From Agromyces soli (GTDB lineage Bacteria > Actinomycetota > Actinomycetes > Actinomycetales > Microbacteriaceae), in assembly GCF_022811605.1 (NCBI RefSeq), contig NZ_CP094533.1, positions 2,356,001-2,420,000 on the forward strand: 64,000 bases of DNA. The letters run 5' to 3'. Shown piece by piece: positions 1-54,555 of the stretch (the stretch's first letter is position 1; every line of letters starts with the position of its first letter). The position numbers were made by a program, and so were the translations under genes. The notes under the pieces were generated by a model, which did not search any database, was not told the DNA's origin, and saw nothing but the letters and a program-made list of their open reading frames with translations.

Positions 1-1501
1 GCGCCGCGGCGACGGTGCGGCGGGCGAGCTCGAGCAGGTTGCGGTCCTCGGCGCTCGGCCGATCGCGCACCTCGGGCGCGCGCCAGCTCGCGAGGACGGA
101 TGCCGCCGCCTCGAGACCGGCCGCCGAGCGCTCGAGCCCGGCGGCGTCCCACATGAGCGCGCGGAGCGCCCCCCGGTCCATCGCTCGCCCCCCACCTCGA
201 CTTGCCCGACTTTCACGAAAGTCGGGCAAGTCGGGGGAGAGGTCTCGACTTGCCCGACTTTCACGAACGTCGGGCAAGTCGGGGGAGAGGTCTCGACTTG
301 CCCGACTTTCGTGAAAGTCGGGCAACTCGGGGGCGGGGGTGGCGACGAGGGCGCGCGCGGCGCGCTCGGCGAACACGGCGGCCTCGAGCAGCGAGTTCGA
401 GGCGAGCCGGTTGGCGCCATGCACGCCGGTGCGGGCGCACTCGCCGACGGCGAAGAGGTTCGGCAGCGTGGTGCGGGCGTCGAGGTCGACGACGATCCCG
501 CCCATCGCGTAGTGCGCGGCGGGGGTCACCGGGATCGGATCGCGCGACCAGTCGAACCCGGCGTCGCGCACGATGCGGTCGAGCCCCGGGAATCGGCGGG
601 CGAGCGCCTTCCCGCCGAGCGCCGTCGCGTCGAGCAGCACGGGCGCGCCGGCCTGCCCGGCCATCGTGCGCCACACGGCACGGGCGACGACATCGCGCGG
701 GGCGAGCTCGGCCAGCGGATGCGCCTCGGCGAGGAACCGCCGCCCCGAGGCATCCCGCAGCACCGCGCCCTCGCCGCGCACCGCCTCGGAGATGAGCGGC
801 GTTCCGGGCACCGCGAGCGCGGTCGGATGGAACTGCACGAACTCGAGGTCGGCGAGTTCTGCACCGGCACGGGCCGCGGCGGCGACCCCGTCGCCAGTCG
901 CCACGCCGGGGTTCGTCGTGTGCAGATAGAGCTGCCCAGCCCCGCCGGTGGCGAGCACCACCCGGTCGGCTCGGCGTTCGACGATCGTTCCGTCCGCGCC
1001 GAGCAGCACGGCCCCGACGACCGCGCCGCCCTCCACGAGGAGATCGAGCAGCATCGTGCGCTCGTGCACCGCGACGGACCGCCGTCGCACGGTCGCGACC
1101 AGCGCCGCCTCGATCGCTGCGCCGGTCGCGTCACCGCCGGCGTGCACGATGCGCGCGCGGGAATGCGCCGCCTCGAGGCCGCGCTCCAGTCCCGACTCGT
1201 CGCGGTCGAAACCGACGCCGAAGCGGATCAGATCGCGCACCCGGGCCGGTCCCTCCTCGCAGAGCACGCGCACCACCTCGGGATCGGCGAGGCCGGCGCC
1301 CGCGGCGATCGTGTCGGCGTAGTGCCGCTCGGCCGAGTCGTCGGGGAACAGCGCGGCCGCGATGCCACCCTGCGCGTAGCGGGTGCTGCCCTCGGCCAGT
1401 TCGGTCTTCGTGACCAGTTCGACGGTGCAGCCGGCCTCGGCGGCGCGCACCGCGGTCCACAGGCCCGCGATCCCGCCGCCGACGACGAGCACGCTCGGCA
1501 C
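1..1501 (-). CDS. nadB: L-aspartate oxidase NadB (C-terminus cut by window edge)
   Basis: FAD enzyme that oxidises L-aspartate to iminoaspartate, the first step of de novo NAD synthesis, and passes it to NadA. The protein opens with the dinucleotide-binding motif VLVVGGGIAGLWTA and carries the NadB signature HGANRLASNSLLE. The GTG start at 1501 lies 2 bases after the nadA stop, so the genes are surely co-transcribed. Residues about 392-433 are encoded by three copies of a 30-bp palindrome (201-326). The frame stays open through them and resumes in a normal NadB C-terminal helical domain (ALRALMWDAAG). About 500 residues are visible and the end lies beyond base 1. The start is below the usual minimum for recognising the gene as a closed frame because the stop is outside the window. 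Confidence 0.93.
   Translation of the reverse strand, partial: MPSVLVVGGGIAGLWTAVRAAEAGCTVELVTKTELAEGSTRYAQGGIAAALFPDDSAERHYADTIAAGAGLADPEVVRVLCEEGPARVRDLIRFGVGFDRDESGLERGLEAAHSRARIVHAGGDATGAAIEAALVATVRRRSVAVHERTMLLDLLVEGGAVVGAVLLGADGTIVERRADRVVLATGGAGQLYLHTTNPGVATGDGVAAAARAGAELADLEFVQFHPTALAVPGTPLISEAVRGEGAVLRDASGRRFLAEAHPLAELAPRDVVARAVWRTMAGQAGAPVLLDATALGGKALARRFPGLDRIVRDAGFDWSRDPIPVTPAAHYAMGGIVVDLDARTTLPNLFAVGECARTGVHGANRLASNSLLEAAVFAERAARALVATPAPELPDFHESRASRDLSPDLPDVRESRASRDLSPDLPDFRESRASRGGGRAMDRGALRALMWDAAGLERSAAGLEAAASVLASWRAPEVRDRPSAEDRNLLELARRTVAAA
201..326. repeat. Three in-frame copies of a 30-bp palindromic element inside nadB
   Basis: Copies lie at 201-230, 249-278 and 297-326. 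Each arm is cttgcccgactttca or a near variant followed by its reverse complement. Copy-to-copy period is exactly 48 bases (30-bp palindrome plus an 18-base spacer ending tctcga), which is 16 codons. In nadB each unit reads roughly LPDFHESRASRDLSPD. No stop is created. The same palindrome recurs at 35527-35603. Copy 2 has a mismatch in the right arm and copy 3 differs at its last base. Confidence 0.93.
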
Positions 1502-1503
1502 GG

Positions 1504-2889
1504 TCAGCTCCGGCCCGCGGCGGGCGCCGCGCCCGGCGCCGGCGTCGGGGCGTCGAGCAGCGCCCCGCTCACAGGCGCCCCGCTCGGCAGCGCCCGCAGC
1601 ATCCGTTCGAGGGCGACCTTCGCATCGGCGGCGACCGAGTCGGGCACCTGGATGCGGTTCACGACGCGGCCCTCGACGAGCTCCTCGAGCACCCAGGCCA
1701 GGTAGCCCGGGTGGATGCGGTACATCGTCGAGCACGGGCAGACCACCGGGTCGAGGCAGAAGATGGTGTGCTCGGGGTGCTCGGCGGCGAGCCGCTGCAC
1801 GAGGTTGATCTCGGTGCCGATCGCGAAGGTGGTGCCCGCCGGGGCGGCCTGGATCGCCTTCACGATGAAGTCCGTCGAACCGGCCGCGTCGGCGGCGTCG
1901 ACGACGGGCATCGGGGACTCGGGGTGCACGATGACCCGCACGCCGGGGTGCTCGCGGCGCGCCTCGGCGATCTGCTCGACCGTGAAGCGGCGGTGCACCG
2001 AGCAGAAGCCGTGCCAGAGGATGACCCGGGCGTCGTCGAGCGTCGCGGCGTCGTTGCCGCCGAGCGGCCGGCGCGGGTTCCACATCGGCATCGCCTCGAG
2101 CGGCACCCCCATCGCCTTGGCGGTGTTGCGGCCGAGGTGCTGGTCGGGGAAGAAGAGCACGCGCCGGCCGCGTTCGAACGCCTGCTCGAGCACGGTGCGG
2201 GCGTTGGACGAGGTGCAGACGATGCCGCCGTGCCGTCCGACGAATCCCTTGAGCGCCGCAGAGGAGTTCATGTAGGTCACCGGCACGACGGGGAGGAGCC
2301 CGTCGGCGTCGGGCGCGTCGAGGTCGCCGTAGACGGTGGCGAGCTGCTCCCAGCACGCCTCGACGCTCGCCTCGTCGGCCATGTCGGCCATCGAACAGCC
2401 GGCGGCGAGGTTCGGCAGGATGACGGCCTGCTCGGGCCGGGAGAGGAGGTCGGCGGTCTCGGCCATGAAGTGCACGCCGCAGAAGACGATCGCCTCGGCG
2501 TCCGGTCGGGTCAGCGCGGCGTTCGCGAGCTGGAACGAGTCGCCGACGAAGTCCGCGTGCTGCACCACCTCGTCGCGCTGGTAGAAGTGGCCGAGGACGA
2601 CGACGCGCTCGCCGAGGGTCTGCTTCGCGCGGCGGATGCGCTCGTGCAGCTCCTCGTCGCTCGCGAGCCGGTAGGCCTCGGGCAGCGCGCCCTGCCGGGG
2701 CGAGCCGGTGGGGATGACGTCGCCCATGGACGCGCCGGGACCGTACGAGGCGGGGCCCGAGTCGAAGGTCCACGGGCCGTCGGCCAGCTCGGGCGCGCAG
2801 CTCTCGCCGCCGCTCGCCCCGCTCGCGATGAGGCGGATGCTGCGATCGACGGACGCCGCTCGGCGGGTGTCGAGGGAGGTGGGGCTCAT
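1504..2889 (-). CDS. nadA: Quinolinate synthase NadA
   Basis: Condenses iminoaspartate with dihydroxyacetone phosphate to quinolinate, using a 4Fe-4S cluster. Conserved cysteine-containing segments are visible: FCGVHFMAETA, the GCSMADMA stretch, WHGFCSVH and CPCSTMYRI near the C-terminus. At 461 residues it is the long actinobacterial form, with an N-terminal extension of about 80 residues before the core begins near AYRLASDEEL. The ATG start at 2889 overlaps the stop of the upstream nrtR gene by four bases (ATGA), so translation is likely coupled. It is followed two bases later by nadB. nadC would be expected beyond the left window edge. Confidence 0.95.
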   Translation of the reverse strand: MSPTSLDTRRAASVDRSIRLIASGASGGESCAPELADGPWTFDSGPASYGPGASMGDVIPTGSPRQGALPEAYRLASDEELHERIRRAKQTLGERVVVLGHFYQRDEVVQHADFVGDSFQLANAALTRPDAEAIVFCGVHFMAETADLLSRPEQAVILPNLAAGCSMADMADEASVEACWEQLATVYGDLDAPDADGLLPVVPVTYMNSSAALKGFVGRHGGIVCTSSNARTVLEQAFERGRRVLFFPDQHLGRNTAKAMGVPLEAMPMWNPRRPLGGNDAATLDDARVILWHGFCSVHRRFTVEQIAEARREHPGVRVIVHPESPMPVVDAADAAGSTDFIVKAIQAAPAGTTFAIGTEINLVQRLAAEHPEHTIFCLDPVVCPCSTMYRIHPGYLAWVLEELVEGRVVNRIQVPDSVAADAKVALERMLRALPSGAPVSGALLDAPTPAPGAAPAAGRS

Positions 2890-3596
2890 GACGCGGTCCT
2901 CTCGGCGTCTCGGAACGGTTCCCGGGCACCCGGCGCGGTGCCGGCCGGGTCGTAGCGGTACAGCTTCGGCGGGCGGTGCGGGGTGCCGGCGCGGTGCTCG
3001 CCCGTCTCCTGCAGGCCGCCCGAGGCGAGCATGGTGCGGCGGAAGTTCGCCGGGTCGAGCGGGCGGCGGAGCACCGCCTCGTAGACCTCGCGCAGTTCGG
3101 CGAGGGTGAAGGTGCGACCGAGCAGGGCGTGCGCGATCTCCGAGTACTCGACCTTCGTTCGGAGCCGCCAGAGCGCGTAGGCGATGATCTCGGCGTGGTC
3201 GAAGGCGAGGTCGGGCAGCGTGTCGGCCGGTACCCAGCGCACGTTCGGGCCGATCGTGGCGCGGGCGGCCTCGTCGCTCGGCAGCAGGGCCCAGTAGACG
3301 ACGGAGACGACGCGCTCGCCGGGGGAGCGGTCGACGCCGCCGAAGGTGTAGAGCTGCTCGAGGTAGCTCGGCGCGAGGCCGGTGGTGGCCCGCAGTGTGC
3401 GGGCGGCGGCGGTCTCGAGCTCCTCGTTCGGCGGGAGCCAGCCGCCGGGCAGGGCCCAATGGCCGAGTTGGGGCTCGCGGGTGCGGCGCACGAGCGGGGT
3501 CCAGAGGGCGGGCGGGCCGCCGGCGCGGTCGGCGCGGAGCGCGAAGATCACGGTCGACACGGCGAGGCGCGCGGTGCTCGGCGGGGTCGTGGGCAT
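2886..3596 (-). CDS. nrtR: NrtR-type Nudix-related transcriptional regulator
   Basis: Likely repressor of NAD synthesis that senses an ADP-ribose-type ligand. The N-terminal half is a Nudix fold with a recognisable but degenerate Nudix box at residues about 52-74: GGWLPP.EELE is kept, but the catalytic REUxEE glutamates are replaced (RTLRATTG). This is typical of NrtR proteins that bind rather than hydrolyse the ligand. The C-terminal half (from about residue 150) matches the winged-helix part, with YSEIAHALLGRTFTLAELREVYEAVL. The ATG at 3596 is preceded by a GGAGG ribosome site. The frame stays open further upstream, but without a site. The gene heads the nrtR-nadA-nadB operon and probably controls itself through the palindromes at 3621-3680. 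Confidence 0.9.
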   Translation of the reverse strand: MPTTPPSTARLAVSTVIFALRADRAGGPPALWTPLVRRTREPQLGHWALPGGWLPPNEELETAAARTLRATTGLAPSYLEQLYTFGGVDRSPGERVVSVVYWALLPSDEAARATIGPNVRWVPADTLPDLAFDHAEIIAYALWRLRTKVEYSEIAHALLGRTFTLAELREVYEAVLRRPLDPANFRRTMLASGGLQETGEHRAGTPHRPPKLYRYDPAGTAPGAREPFRDAERTAS

Positions 3597-35526: not shown

Positions 35527-35603
35527 CTTGCCCGACTTTCATGAAAGTCGGGCAACACCTGCTCTTCTCTCGACTTGCCCGACTTTCATGAAAGTCGGGC
35601 AAG
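35527..35603. repeat. Two copies of the 30-bp palindromic element between convergent genes
   Basis: Copies at 35527-35556 and 35574-35603, spaced 47 bases apart. The second copy is a perfect 30-bp palindrome centred on the base pair between cttt|catg-type arms, and the first lacks only the last match. The spacer ends in tctcga, as in the nadB cluster. Here it lies in noncoding DNA between the decarboxylase and mrp stops, where it may also end transcription from both sides. Confidence 0.93.
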
Positions 35604-49802: not shown

Positions 49803-52800
49803 TCGCCGCCGCAGAGATCGCGACCCGGCTCGGCCTGCACCCGCCGACCGAGGAGCAGCGCGCGGTCATCGAGGCCGATCCGCGAGGCCGCTCGCTCGTC
49901 GTCGCCGGTGCCGGCAGCGGCAAGACCGAGACCATGGCGAACCGGGTCGTGTGGCTCCTCGCGAACGGCCACGTGCAGGTGCCGGAGGTCCTCGGGCTCA
50001 CCTTCACCCGCAAGGCCGCGGGGGAGCTCGCCGAGCGCATCCGCGCGCGCATCGGACAGCTCGTGGCCGAGGGCATCGCCGAACTCGAGCTCGACCCCCT
50101 CGAGGCGGCGACGGTGTCGACGTACAACGCCTTCGCGAGCGCCATCTACCGCGAGCACGCCCTGCTGATCGGTCGTGAGCCCGACGCCGCGGTGCTGGGC
50201 GAGGCATCCGCCTGGCAGCTGGCCCGCTCGATCGTCGCGGCCGCCGCCGACCCTCGGCTCGTCGAGCTCGACGCCTCCCTCGACAAGGTGACCGGCGCCG
50301 TGCTCGGGCTGAGCCGAGCGCTCGGCGAGAACGTCGCCGACGCGCGCGATGTGCGGGCGATGGCGCGCGAGTTCCTCGGCATGGCCGACCTGCCGATCGG
50401 GGCGCCGCGCAAGCGCACCCCGTACGACTCCTTCGTGGCCGCGCTCGGTGCGGTGGACGCGCTGCCGCCGCTGCTCGAGCTCGCCGAGGCGTACGCCGAG
50501 GCGAAGCGGGCCCGCGGCTACGTCGAGTTCTCCGACCAGGTCTCGCTCGCCCTCGAGATCTGCACGGCGCACCCCGAGGTGGCAGTCGCCCACCGCGAGC
50601 GGTTCCGCACCGTGCTGCTCGACGAGTATCAAGACACGAGCGTCGTGCAGACCCGGCTGCTCGCCGCGCTGTTCCGCGGGCACTCGGTGATGGCGGTCGG
50701 CGACCCGGACCAGTCGATCTACGGCTGGCGCGGCGCGAGCGCCGCGAACCTGGCCCGCTTCGGCGGCGACTTCGCGGCCGAACGAGCCGAGGCACGCGCC
50801 GACGAGCGCGTCGAGCTGCGGCACGACGCGAGCGTCGACGGCCCCCGGCGCACGGGTGCGGGCGACGCCGTCGTCTACGATCTCTCCACGAGCTGGCGCA
50901 ATCCGCGCATCGTGCTCGACGCCGCGAACGCGATCATCGAGCCGCTCGACGGCGGCATCGACAAGGCCCCGCTCGCGGCCTCGCCGTTCGCCGGCGACGG
51001 CGTGCTCGACTGCGCCTGGGCCGAGACCATCGACGAAGAGGCCGAGCACATCGCCCGGTGGTTCGCCGAGCGCCTCGGGCACGCCGAGCCCGGTGACGCA
51101 GGCGCGTCATCGGGCGCCGCCCGCCAGCACCGAAGCGCCGCGGCAGCCGCCGCGCGCACGGGCGCCCTGCTCTGCCGCACCTTCGCGAACGTCGACGTGT
51201 TCACCGCCGCGCTGCGACGGCACGGGGTCCCCGTGCACGTCCTCGGCGTGGCCGGGCTCCTCGACCAGCCCGTCATCGCCGACCTCGTCAGCACCCTGCG
51301 CGTGCTGCACGACCCGACCGCCGGGGCTGAGCTCATCCGCGTGCTGGGCGGCGCCCGCTGGGCGATCGGCCCCGCCGACCTCTCCGCGCTCGCCGGCCTC
51401 GCGCGCTGGCTCGTCGACCGCGACCAGGCGATGCGGCGGCTCGACGACGGCGTGCGCGCGGGCCTGCGGGCCTCGATCGCGGCAGAGGAGTCCCCGTCGA
51501 TCGTCGATGCGCTCGACTTTCTGCTGTCCGCGCCCGACGACCACCGTGCGCTCGTCGCGTTCACGGCCGAGGGGCTCGCCCGCATGCGTCGCGCCGGCGC
51601 GCAGCTCCAGTCCCTGCGCCGGCGCGCGGGGCTCGGTCTCGTCGACTTCGTCAGCCTCGTGCAGCACGAGCTGCTCCTCGACATCGAAGTGGCCGCGAAC
51701 GCCGAGCAGCCGCTCGGTGCGCCGAGCCTCGAAGCCTTCGACGAACTGCTCGCCGGCTTCGTCGACGTCGCGGAGCACCCGAACCTCGGGGCCTTCCTCG
51801 GCTGGCTCACCGAGGCCGAGCAGCGCGATCGGCTCGCCCCGCGCCAGGACGAGCCGGAGCCGGGCGCCGTGCAGGTGCTGTCCATCCACGGGTCGAAGGG
51901 CCTCGAGTGGGACGTCGTCGCGATCCCGCGGCTCGTGACCGACGAGCTGCCGGGCAAGCCGCGCTCCGCGAAGGGCTGGCTCGCGTTCGGCGAGCTGCCG
52001 AACGAGTTCCGTGGCGACCGCGACGAGTTGCCCGAACTGATGTGGCGCGGCGTGCAGAGCCAGCTCGAGTTCGACGAGGCCGTGGCCGGCTTCGCCGAGG
52101 AGAACCGGCACCGCCACGCCGAGGAGGAGCGCCGGCTCGCCTACGTCGGGCTCACCCGCACGCGCGACGAGCTGCTGCTCACCGGCTCGTGGTGGGCCTC
52201 GCAGAAGCAGCCGCGGCAGCCGAGCGTGTTCCTCCGCGAGCTCGTCGCGCACGGGCTCCTGCCCGCCTCGGCGCTGCCAGACCGCCCCGAGTCCGACGAG
52301 AACCCCCGCGCGGTCGGCGAGGAACGGGTGAGCTGGCCCCTCGACCCGCTCGGTCGGCGTCGACTCGGGGTCGTGCGCGCCGCCGACGCCGTGCGGGCCG
52401 CCGCTGAGGGGCCGAGCGGCGCGGGCATCGGTCAGCGTCTCGGCGACCAGCTCCGGCTCCTGCTCGAGGAGCGGCGGCGTCGGATGGCCGGTCACGCGGC
52501 GCCCGAGATCCCGGCTCGCGTGCCGGCGTCGCGTTTCAAGGACTACGTCGACGACGCGGCCGCCGTCGCCGAGCAGCTGCGCCGGCCGATGCCGCAGCGG
52601 CCGTACCGCGCCACCCGGCTCGGCACGCTGTTCCACCGTTGGGTCGAGCATCGCTCGACCGGCGAGCTCGAGGCGAACGCCCTCGACTGGGCCGAGGGCG
52701 GCGCCAGTGACGAGCTGTTCGCCTGGTCGGAGTCCGAGCTCGGGGTGGAGTCCGAGCTCGGAGCGGAGTCCGGTATCGAATCGCGGTCCAGTGTCGAGTC

Positions 52801-53329
52801 GGGCTCCGGCGTCGCCCCGGCGCCTGCGTCCCCCGGCTCCGCCCTCATCGACGGCTCGGCCGCGCGGTTCGCCAAACTGCAGGCCACCTTCGAGGCGTCC
52901 GAGTGGGGCCAGCTGCGCCCGAGTGCGGTCGAGCTCGAACTGCATCTGCCGCTCGATGAGCACGTCTTCGTCTGCAAGCTCGACGCCGTCTACGAGATCG
53001 ACCCCGCGAGCGAGCTCGGCCGGCAGGGCCTTCGGCATCAGGTCGTCGACTGGAAGACCGGTCGAGCGCCGCAGGGCGAGCGCGAGCTCGAACTCCGGCA
53101 GACGCAGCTCGCGCTCTACCGGCTCGCCTACGCGAACTGGGCCGGGGTGCCGCCGGAGCAGATCGACGCCGTCTTCTACTACGTCGAGGACGACCGCCAG
53201 ATCCGGCCCGAACGGCTCTACGACGAAGCGGAGTTGCGGCGCGCCTGGTCGTCCGCGCTGCGCTCGGCGGAGTCGGCGAACGACGACTCGTCGCCGTCCG
53301 CAGCGTCGGCCGCCGTGCTGCCGCGCTGA
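49799..53329 (+). CDS. adnB: AdnB subunit of the AdnAB helicase-nuclease
   Basis: Lead motor of the complex. 1176 residues. Walker A AGAGSGKTET (K42), motif II LLDEYQDTS (D275, E276), GDPDQSIYGWRGA and later GSKGLEWDVV with TRTRDELLLTG are all canonical, unlike AdnA. The RecB-like nuclease shows GTLFHRWVEHR, KLDAVYE (D1062) and VVDWKTGRA (D1084, K1086). A low-complexity Ser/Glu/Gly stretch lies in residues about 977-1005 (see repeat at 52729). Its last 112 bases overlap the convergent kinase-like gene. Confidence 0.93.
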   Translation: MIAAAEIATRLGLHPPTEEQRAVIEADPRGRSLVVAGAGSGKTETMANRVVWLLANGHVQVPEVLGLTFTRKAAGELAERIRARIGQLVAEGIAELELDPLEAATVSTYNAFASAIYREHALLIGREPDAAVLGEASAWQLARSIVAAAADPRLVELDASLDKVTGAVLGLSRALGENVADARDVRAMAREFLGMADLPIGAPRKRTPYDSFVAALGAVDALPPLLELAEAYAEAKRARGYVEFSDQVSLALEICTAHPEVAVAHRERFRTVLLDEYQDTSVVQTRLLAALFRGHSVMAVGDPDQSIYGWRGASAANLARFGGDFAAERAEARADERVELRHDASVDGPRRTGAGDAVVYDLSTSWRNPRIVLDAANAIIEPLDGGIDKAPLAASPFAGDGVLDCAWAETIDEEAEHIARWFAERLGHAEPGDAGASSGAARQHRSAAAAAARTGALLCRTFANVDVFTAALRRHGVPVHVLGVAGLLDQPVIADLVSTLRVLHDPTAGAELIRVLGGARWAIGPADLSALAGLARWLVDRDQAMRRLDDGVRAGLRASIAAEESPSIVDALDFLLSAPDDHRALVAFTAEGLARMRRAGAQLQSLRRRAGLGLVDFVSLVQHELLLDIEVAANAEQPLGAPSLEAFDELLAGFVDVAEHPNLGAFLGWLTEAEQRDRLAPRQDEPEPGAVQVLSIHGSKGLEWDVVAIPRLVTDELPGKPRSAKGWLAFGELPNEFRGDRDELPELMWRGVQSQLEFDEAVAGFAEENRHRHAEEERRLAYVGLTRTRDELLLTGSWWASQKQPRQPSVFLRELVAHGLLPASALPDRPESDENPRAVGEERVSWPLDPLGRRRLGVVRAADAVRAAAEGPSGAGIGQRLGDQLRLLLEERRRRMAGHAAPEIPARVPASRFKDYVDDAAAVAEQLRRPMPQRPYRATRLGTLFHRWVEHRSTGELEANALDWAEGGASDELFAWSESELGVESELGAESGIESRSSVESGSGVAPAPASPGSALIDGSAARFAKLQATFEASEWGQLRPSAVELELHLPLDEHVFVCKLDAVYEIDPASELGRQGLRHQVVDWKTGRAPQGERELELRQTQLALYRLAYANWAGVPPEQIDAVFYYVEDDRQIRPERLYDEAELRRAWSSALRSAESANDDSSPSAASAAVLPR
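52729..52815 (+). repeat. Low-complexity repeat inside adnB nuclease region
   Basis: Degenerate repeats of gagtccgagctcggag-type units encode SESELG, ESELGA, ESGIES and similar short runs. It splits the RecB nuclease region between the HRWVEHR and KLDAVYE segments, probably as a surface loop. Confidence 0.7.
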
Positions 53330-54555
53330 GCCGGCTCGACTGCCGCCCCGGCATCGGGATCCCCGTCCGCGTCCGGGTCCGCATCCGCATCCGCATCGGG
53401 GTTCGCGGCCGAGGCCGGCGCAGCGTCGCCCCAATCGCTGAGGTCGAGCGGGATGGGCGCCGTCATCGAGGAATCCGTCTCCGCATCCGCCGCGCGGCGG
53501 CGGAGCGCCGAGAAGTCGTAGCTGTCCGTCAGCATCGCACCCGCGGGGTCGCGCTGCGCGTCGAGCTGCGGGGTGCGGTCGAGCATGCGCTCGACGTCGC
53601 CGACGGTCAGGATCGGACCCGTCTCCGGGGAGAGCGGCTCGCTCGAGCGGTCGTGCACGCTTTCGACGAGCGCATCGAGCATGCCGACGGCATCGGCGAT
53701 GGTCGCCTCGTCGCGCTGCTCGACGCCGTGCAGGAGCCAGCGGGCGAGCTCGAGTTCCCCGTACAGCAGGGCGCGCTGCGGGATGTGGGGGTCCGCGCCG
53801 CCCTCCCGGGCGAGCAGGTAGGTCTCGAGCGCCCGCTCGGCGGAGCCGCCGCGAGCGGTGAGCAGCCAGTGCAGGTCGACGGCCGGGTCGCCCTGGCCGA
53901 GCTCCGACCAGCCCACGATGCCGGTGACGGTGTCCTCGAGCGAGAGGAAGGAGTCCGCGCTGAGCTGCCCGTTCACGACCGTCGGCTGGAAGCGCCAGAG
54001 CGACTCGTCGTCGGTCGCCTCCTCCCAGCGGCGGAGCAGCGCCGCCGGCAGGTGGCCCGTGTCGGTCGCGCGCCCCACGAGCGACACGACCTCGTCGCGG
54101 ACCTCGCCGGGCGTGCGGCGGGTCAGGCCGGCCTCGCCGATGAAGCCGGTGGGCAGATTGTGCACGGCGGCGATGGCGAGGCCCACGGACTCGGCGATCG
54201 CGTCGGTGCCGGTGAGCTCGTCGGCCGTGCGGCCGAGCCCGGGCACGAAGGTGGTCACGACCCCGCGGGTGCCGTCGACCGGGGCCTGGCCGACGTACTC
54301 GGCCAACTCGAACGGCAGCATCGCGCGCACCCCTTCGGTGAGCGCATGCAGGGCGAGGAGGTCGGCCGACTGCTCGGTCTCGGCGCTCTGGTCGCGCGGC
54401 ACGCGGATGAGCAGCTCGCGGTCGTCGCTCGTGCGGAGCCGGACGGCATCGTACGAACCGCCGGAATTGCGGGTGTGCACCCGGACCGCGCGGACCTCGA
54501 GGCCGGGGACCGCCGCCGTCGCCAACGCGGCTAGAGTGAGTGGGGGTCTGGCCAT
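53218..54555 (-). CDS. Aminoglycoside/macrolide phosphotransferase-like kinase
   Basis: 445 residues. An N-lobe (VRLRTSDDRELLIRVP, E-x-x-SADLL) and a kinase-like catalytic loop (VVNGQLSADSFL, then VGWSELGQGDPAVDLHWLL in which the catalytic HxD is replaced and GDPAVDL carries the metal Asp) fit the APH fold. The first part of the loop is HGD-less, so activity is uncertain. After about residue 370 the tail is Asp/Ala-rich and crosses into antisense of adnB by 112 bases. ATG 54555 lies 7 bases after TAAGCT. The gene sits in the conserved adnAB-nudC-uvrD2 block. Confidence 0.75.
   Translation of the reverse strand: MARPPLTLAALATAAVPGLEVRAVRVHTRNSGGSYDAVRLRTSDDRELLIRVPRDQSAETEQSADLLALHALTEGVRAMLPFELAEYVGQAPVDGTRGVVTTFVPGLGRTADELTGTDAIAESVGLAIAAVHNLPTGFIGEAGLTRRTPGEVRDEVVSLVGRATDTGHLPAALLRRWEEATDDESLWRFQPTVVNGQLSADSFLSLEDTVTGIVGWSELGQGDPAVDLHWLLTARGGSAERALETYLLAREGGADPHIPQRALLYGELELARWLLHGVEQRDEATIADAVGMLDALVESVHDRSSEPLSPETGPILTVGDVERMLDRTPQLDAQRDPAGAMLTDSYDFSALRRRAADAETDSSMTAPIPLDLSDWGDAAPASAANPDADADADPDADGDPDAGAAVEPAQRGSTAADAADGDESSFADSAERSADDQARRNSASS
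53343..53412 (-). repeat. Asp/Ala codon repeat in the kinase-like gene tail
   Basis: Runs of gcatcc-type hexamers on the plus strand give alternating Asp-Ala/Asp-Pro on the minus strand (DADADADPDADGDPDAG). It is a likely source of length variation by slippage. Confidence 0.75.

Follow-up and report, generated by a model that had tools for sequence, protein, structure and literature searches.

In our reading, each of the three repeats in nadB represents a copy of a small, non-autonomous palindromic element found in the Agromyces mediolanus lineage, with NUC1 as the candidate nuclease partner that would have driven its spread; we put the probability of this explanation at roughly 0.6. A lineage-specific dispersed palindrome occurs in frame in nadB and also brackets an AbiEi/DUF559-class gene; a comparable arrangement with other palindromes recurs across the genus and the family. 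These observations are best read as a REP-like palindromic system that has a PD-(D/E)xK-type nuclease as its partner instead of a RAYT transposase. The features found in the window, i.e., the whole stretch of 64,000 nucleotides from Agromyces soli that was analyzed, are compiled in the table.

Features of the nadB repeat array and of the intergenic palindrome pair in the window
Feature	Position	Strand	Details
nadB (L-aspartate oxidase)	2..1504	-	501 codons within the window; TIGR00551 above cut-off; 3' end lost at window edge
Tandem array in nadB	196..333	none	period 48 bp, 2.9 units; Tandem Repeats Finder, 94% matches
Palindrome copy 1, in frame in nadB	198..233	none	centre CACG, 36 bp
Palindrome copy 2, in nadB	246..281	none	centre CACG, one arm mismatch
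Palindrome copy 3, in nadB	294..329	none	centre CGTG
Intergenic core copy	35528..35555	none	centre CATG; 16 bp past called end of + strand gene
Second intergenic core copy	35575..35602	none	spacing 47; convergent gene pair, other called stop 20 bp away

Compared with the 36-mer CGACTTGCCCGACTTTCRYGAAAGTCGGGCAAGTCG, the successive nadB palindromes contain 0, 1 and 1 mismatches, and their 28-bp cores start at 202, 250 and 298, that is, at distances of 48 and again 48 bp. None of 100 dinucleotide-preserving shuffles of the window yielded a match to the 36-mer. The original prediction had described three 30-bp palindromes with a period of 48; number and period hold, and the length has to be corrected to about 36 bp. 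It had also proposed that nadB stays open through the repeats and had named a broken frame in a resequenced strain as evidence to the contrary. The minus-strand frame indeed runs uninterrupted across the array, with the translation ...PELPDFHESRASRDLSPDLPDVRESRASRDLSPDLPDFRESRASRGGG..., and it is intact in all three lineage members, G000 (the genome that contains the window), G033 and G034. At its gathering thresholds, Rfam gave no match in positions 1-3000 of the window. Tandem Repeats Finder reported other short tandem repeats at 53351-53406 and 52728-52809, with periods of 6-24 and 18, respectively.

NadB matches the NCBIfam L-aspartate oxidase model TIGR00551 with 465.9 bits (cut-off 452.75) in a single stretch over residues 4-501; the remainder of the gene 3' of the window edge was read from loci L083 and L113. 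In a phmmer comparison, NadB residues 4-384 align with residues 10-404 of the L-aspartate oxidase 5kxj_A, and a second stretch pairs residues 426-471 with 419-467 at 4.6 bits, which is not significant alone. From the extents of both alignments it follows that the repeats lie after the large N-terminal part of NadB and ahead of its C-terminal part, a helical domain. All nadB units are in frame, three in G000, three with equal spacing in G034 and a single decayed one in G033, and the four tandem spacings in G000 and G034 are 48, 48, 48 and 48 bp. Among 25 tandem pairs within 60 bp outside nadB, 5 spacings were multiples of 3. The three nadB copies of G000 have the centres CACG, CACG and CGTG, the central CATG being lost in every one, and the nadB copies of G034 retain it.

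Beyond nadB, the 28-bp core of the family, TTGCCCGACTTTCATGAAAGTCGGGCAA, recurs with 0-3 changes in a search that allowed up to 5 and whose rows include duplicates from overlapping loci. That the palindrome belongs to a dispersed family, in line with the palindromic element originally supposed, is evident from the exact 20-bp core, which was counted 56 times in G000, 26 times in G033 and 64 times in G034 and was absent from the other 57 of the 60 genus genomes; the reversed pattern gave 0 matches in the same 60 genomes. These counts are lower bounds, and further G000 copies with one or more changes were found. In a sample of 398 family genomes from 85 genera, which did not include G033 and G034, the exact CATG form occurred in G000 alone. 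A 22-mer search of a named collection, in which the window's own genome is possibly absent, returned 67 stretches, all from A. mediolanus JCM 3346 (G033) and RA 14A.10 (G034). The centre is CATG in 167 of 172 copies from 103 site loci, and the three nadB copies of G000 are among the five exceptions. In the JCM 3346 (G033) stretches L027, L045, L048, L062, L065, L068, L069, L078 and L080, runs of N start at or near palindromes. Since they adjoin nine of its loci, the copy count of this genome is a lower bound in this respect as well, and we dropped the reading that G033 has few copies owing to loss of its nuclease. Near one family copy of JCM 3346 there is also an unrelated palindrome, GTGACGTCAGTAT...ATACTGACGTCAC (L078:1414-1469), possibly of another family.

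Most copies lie between genes. The 138 clusters of G000, G033 and G034, which take in 55 of the 56 exact cores of G000, 25 of the 26 of G033 and all 64 of G034, comprise 67 in convergent, 50 in tandem and 10 in divergent gaps, 7 of undetermined context and 4 inside genes, as judged with a home-made codon-usage gene caller and with orthologous sites counted once per genome. Two of the clusters inside genes are artefacts beside N runs and the other two are nadB of G000 and of G034. Counting coding versus intergenic copies, as had been proposed, therefore yields 127 intergenic clusters of 138 and nadB as the only coding site found. A called stop lies within 40 bp in 109 of these 127 clusters. For the window as a whole, the genes bordering gaps of at least 30 bp are convergent in 9 cases, tandem in 13 and divergent in 11. 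The window itself holds an additional palindrome pair (35528-35602), absent from the original prediction, between convergent genes. Five copies tested for RNA folding gave z scores of -5.5 to -7.5, and in single copies the bases beside the core pair with a frequency of 0.93 in G000, 0.77 in G033 and 0.98 in G034, compared with 0.48-0.52 for cross-paired arms.

We saw no movement of the element when sites were compared among G000, G033 and G034. Out of 85 palindrome sites of G033 and G034, 59 could be located in G000 DNA and 56 of these 59 carry the palindrome there, a degree of sharing that is inflated by the fact that the compared G000 DNA was mostly picked around palindromes. At sites L029 and L072, G000 has a slightly changed copy. 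At the three G000 sites without palindrome (L017, L061 and L073), no clear target-site duplication of the kind that marks MITE insertion was found. The spread of the palindrome looks old or slow.

The candidate partner NUC1 is a frame of 304 residues that is flanked by palindromes on both sides in G034 (L037). G000 contains a copy at G000:C1:3708585-3709496 that is 95% identical and is likewise bracketed by palindromes. The closest G033 match to NUC1 reaches 36% identity, and in place of the 1.3-kb NUC1 module there are about 51 bp with a different hairpin. This is the cleanest empty site of the comparison; it shows no palindrome core within 8 mismatches, and its hairpin was not found elsewhere among the loci examined, which cover part of the genome. 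Further hairpins of another kind (e.g., GGATGCTGCGGGCG...CGCCCGCGGCATCC) lie upstream of NUC1 at L134:981-1156.

NUC1 is probably composed of an AbiEi-like part and a DUF559/MTES_1575 domain, Vsr-like and of the PD-(D/E)xK type. Its score against Pfam MTES_1575 is 16.9 bits, under the cut-off of 38.2. NUC2, a gene of the same class, reaches 36.9 for AbiEi_4 (cut-off 25) and 30.1 for DUF559 (cut-off 20.6). Of the five proteins scanned, three (NUC2 and those of L160 and L240) were above the Pfam cut-off for DUF559, and NUC1 and the L138 protein were below that for DUF559/MTES_1575. PADLOC matches with E <= 0.01 were to AbiEi models throughout for both nucleases (3e-12 for NUC1). Alignments of the 83 nuclease loci out of 89 that were translated revealed residues that are each conserved in at least 89% of the proteins, namely D291, E341-Y-x-G344-x-x-H347 and D357 in the NUC1 set (n=29) and D251, E264-x-D-G, H271 and D297 in the NUC2 set (n=54). 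Such conserved acidic and histidine residues are typical of PD-(D/E)xK nucleases, where they have a catalytic role.

NUC2 provides a counterpart with another palindrome. In six genomes it lies beside dapA and is flanked by GCGGATATACGATCCG elements that are about 1.1 kb apart. It adjoins dapA in 30 of 30 loci of the series L164-L193 and in 7 of 29 loci of the series L234-L262, one of these 7 being from the genus. Through this steady position NUC2 looks like an old resident, whose arms differ between species. A search of 160 family genomes detected NUC2-like genes in 112 of them (E <= 0.001). With two incomplete loci left out, flank-to-flank similarity exceeded 20.0 at 32 of the 58 genus loci with a nuclease gene, compared with a maximum of 20.0 in 177 control windows (150 random windows and 27 nadB flanks), and 26 of the 58 loci did not pass. 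A control of mismatched pairs was discarded, as homologous loci scored up to 193. Scanning the 32 passing loci for an inverted repeat, for which there was no control, found repeats at both flanks of 26 loci, at a single flank of 5 and at neither flank of 1. The flanking palindrome changes with the nuclease clade. A draw across the family gave 26 complete loci (3 incomplete ones were dropped), of which 9 passed, or 8 of 25 outside the genus, as L238 is a genus member.

Copy numbers of these other palindromes point in the same direction. The arm of GCGGATATACGATCCG was counted 0, 3, 8, 9, 13, 17, 17 and 42 times in the eight genomes with its nuclease (at least 59% identity), whereas among the 52 genomes without it six had non-zero counts, with a maximum of 7 (p = 5e-8, a value for which the identity cut was picked after the table had been seen, kinship was ignored, as in the other statistics, and nuclease-adjacent copies were counted). 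A third family, GAGATGACGCGAA, whose arm adjoins a further group of nucleases, has scattered copies in 20 of 60 genomes (control 0) and in G011 and G025 occurs both on the two sides of the nuclease and at additional places. The inner-arm pattern CGACACGCC...GGCGTGTCG was tried as a family marker and rejected; with 1-14 copies in 28 of 60 genomes, it did not separate families and is a hint at most.

For the nadB insertion site, the original prediction had assumed a linker and had suggested a comparison with homologs. Across 44 genus genomes, the region before the C-terminal part is indeed variable, with a length of 41 to 82 residues, and other species carry other palindromes at the same place in nadB. 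An inverted repeat was found in the linkers of 12 of the 44 genomes at p <= 0.01 relative to codon shuffles. The palindrome GCGGATATACGATCCG is present in the nadB linker of G007, G012, G029, G047 and G049, in an identical reading frame in 5 of 5 genomes. The peptide pattern RHA...GVS, which derives from a common inner arm, appears in 6 of 44 linkers (G013, G020, G023, G025, G028 and G031). With 132 shuffled linkers as the reference, similarity to nuclease-flanking DNA was above the 99th percentile for 19 of 44 nadB linkers and above the maximum for 16 of 44. When linkers were paired with nucleases, that of the own genome ranked first in 3 of 34 cases (0.8 expected), second to fourth in seven and 5th to 43rd in 24; strong own matches (score at least 25.5) were seen solely in G000, G034, G007, G047, G023, G028 and G032. 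Ten genus genomes (G009, G010, G014, G015, G018, G038, G039, G044, G056 and G058) have a NUC1-like nuclease gene in the vicinity of nadB, about 2-5 kb away.

On a NadB tree built without the linker, the GCGGATATACGATCCG label cannot be placed with fewer than four changes on starred branches if G018 is counted, whose decayed copy was assigned by our own judgement. This history fits either one old insertion whose arms were swapped in place or recurrent site-specific insertion. The best reading is that the nadB linker tolerates and retains its palindromes. G012, G029 and G049 have no exact GCGGATATACGATCCG copy other than that in nadB, which suggests that palindromes, once fixed within a coding region, may outlast their dispersed family; in G010 the single copy sits elsewhere.

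How could such a system work? We propose that the nuclease recognizes its own palindrome and would spread copies, or overwrite existing ones, through cleavage and copy-in repair, which would make it a counterpart of the RAYT transposases of REPs. Copies would survive chiefly as hairpins near stop codons, where they probably serve as terminators. In nadB the element lies in a poorly conserved linker, and the 48-bp spacing preserves the frame. Two of the three frames are open across the CATG-centred core, so that the element could have become an inserted peptide there.

Among known systems, the Rickettsia palindromic elements (RPEs) were named in the original prediction as the model. They share with the repeats described here that a palindromic repeat lies in frame within a protein-coding gene and adds peptide, in our case in nadB only. 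Membership in this group is nevertheless not borne out by size and by frequency in open reading frames. RPEs are reported to be about 150 bp long, with nearly half of them inside open reading frames, and to add peptide in frame (PMC10969869); the element of A. mediolanus, in contrast, has a 48-bp unit, a 28-bp core and a single coding locus (2 of 138 clusters). There is also a likeness to REP/REPIN sequences with RAYTs, comprising short palindromes, dozens of copies, a position 3' of genes, often convergent ones, and copies around a partner gene. They differ in that our candidate partner is an AbiEi/DUF559-class nuclease, and no Y1 transposase was found: Y1_Tnp (PF01797) had no match at E <= 0.001 in 13 genus genomes, including G000, G033 and G034, whereas 5 of 14 controls matched. 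Reading the rows by eye, we saw no GTAG or CGTC tag beside the core; the adjoining bases are mostly GAC, GAG, GGG and their complements. REPs inside genes are known, and one study reports REP clusters encoding 43-82 residues as well as different REPs at about one site in recB of two Xanthomonas species (PMC3733652). The latter is a close parallel to the differing palindromes of the nadB linker. To the Vsr/DUF559/MTES_1575 and AbiEi proteins, the nucleases are linked by NUC2 passing the AbiEi_4 and DUF559 cut-offs and by the PADLOC matches of NUC1 and NUC2. A search limited to open-licence papers found none that connects DUF559/AbiEi nucleases with flanking palindromes, which is no proof of novelty.

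Several observations speak against the nuclease-partner explanation, namely the 26 of 58 loci that fail the flank test, the 3 of 34 first ranks in own-genome pairing, the NUC1 score under the Pfam cut-off, the 56 of 59 shared sites, and the fact that neither movement nor a clear target-site duplication was seen in the site comparison. Moreover, G033 has kept perfect palindromes with no close copy of the nuclease. This persistence would be expected if the palindromes were simply hairpin terminators or operators, bound by the nuclease through its AbiEi-like part for self-regulation and spread by recombination or another enzyme. The gene contexts (67 convergent, 50 tandem and 10 divergent among 127 intergenic clusters, 109 with a called stop within 40 bp), the strong RNA folding of five copies and the covariation of the bases beside the core agree with it too. 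Terminator function alone, however, leaves unexplained why copy number is high in one lineage, why the gene is bracketed by palindromes specific to its clade and why nuclease-type residues are conserved, and we regard this alternative as rather unlikely.

The shared frame of GCGGATATACGATCCG in five of five genomes and the RHA...GVS pattern common to six of 44 linkers could also mean that the nadB linker carries a structured element that is old, native to it and functional in the nadB mRNA, and that the differences between species arose by drift and compensatory change. This is improbable, given that the same sequences are dispersed elsewhere in genus genomes, that just 12 of 44 linkers contain an inverted repeat at p <= 0.01 and that the A. 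mediolanus palindrome is unlike the other linker palindromes. Finally, REP-like position and copy number would suit elements of the RAYT/REP kind or MITEs driven by another transposase. The palindrome-flanked module, which is found either whole or not at all, could then be a composite that carries the nuclease gene as a passenger between two copies. We give this little credence, since a passenger would not be expected to switch its palindrome by clade and PF01797 was unmatched in 13 of 13 genus genomes, a search that covered Y1 transposases only.

Extending the nuclease-partner explanation beyond A. mediolanus, we may speculate that the abundant solitary AbiEi-DUF559 nucleases of Actinobacteria are in general partners of palindromic elements. 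A clade-specific palindrome on both sides of the gene would then be the source of hairpins seeded at gene ends, and older palindromes would be overwritten in place by cut-and-copy conversion, among them one that the nadB linker would have retained in frame through much of the history of the genus. This wider proposal is tentative, with the odds slightly against it. If true, it would amount to a second, independently invented REP-like system, in which a restriction-type nuclease fold stands in place of the HUH transposase. It would also give a testable role to a common class of genes that has no assigned function, tying its members to specific DNA palindromes. The findings hint at a route to REP-like repeats other than through RAYTs, and would show how such repeats can turn into a lasting inserted peptide of an NAD-biosynthesis enzyme.
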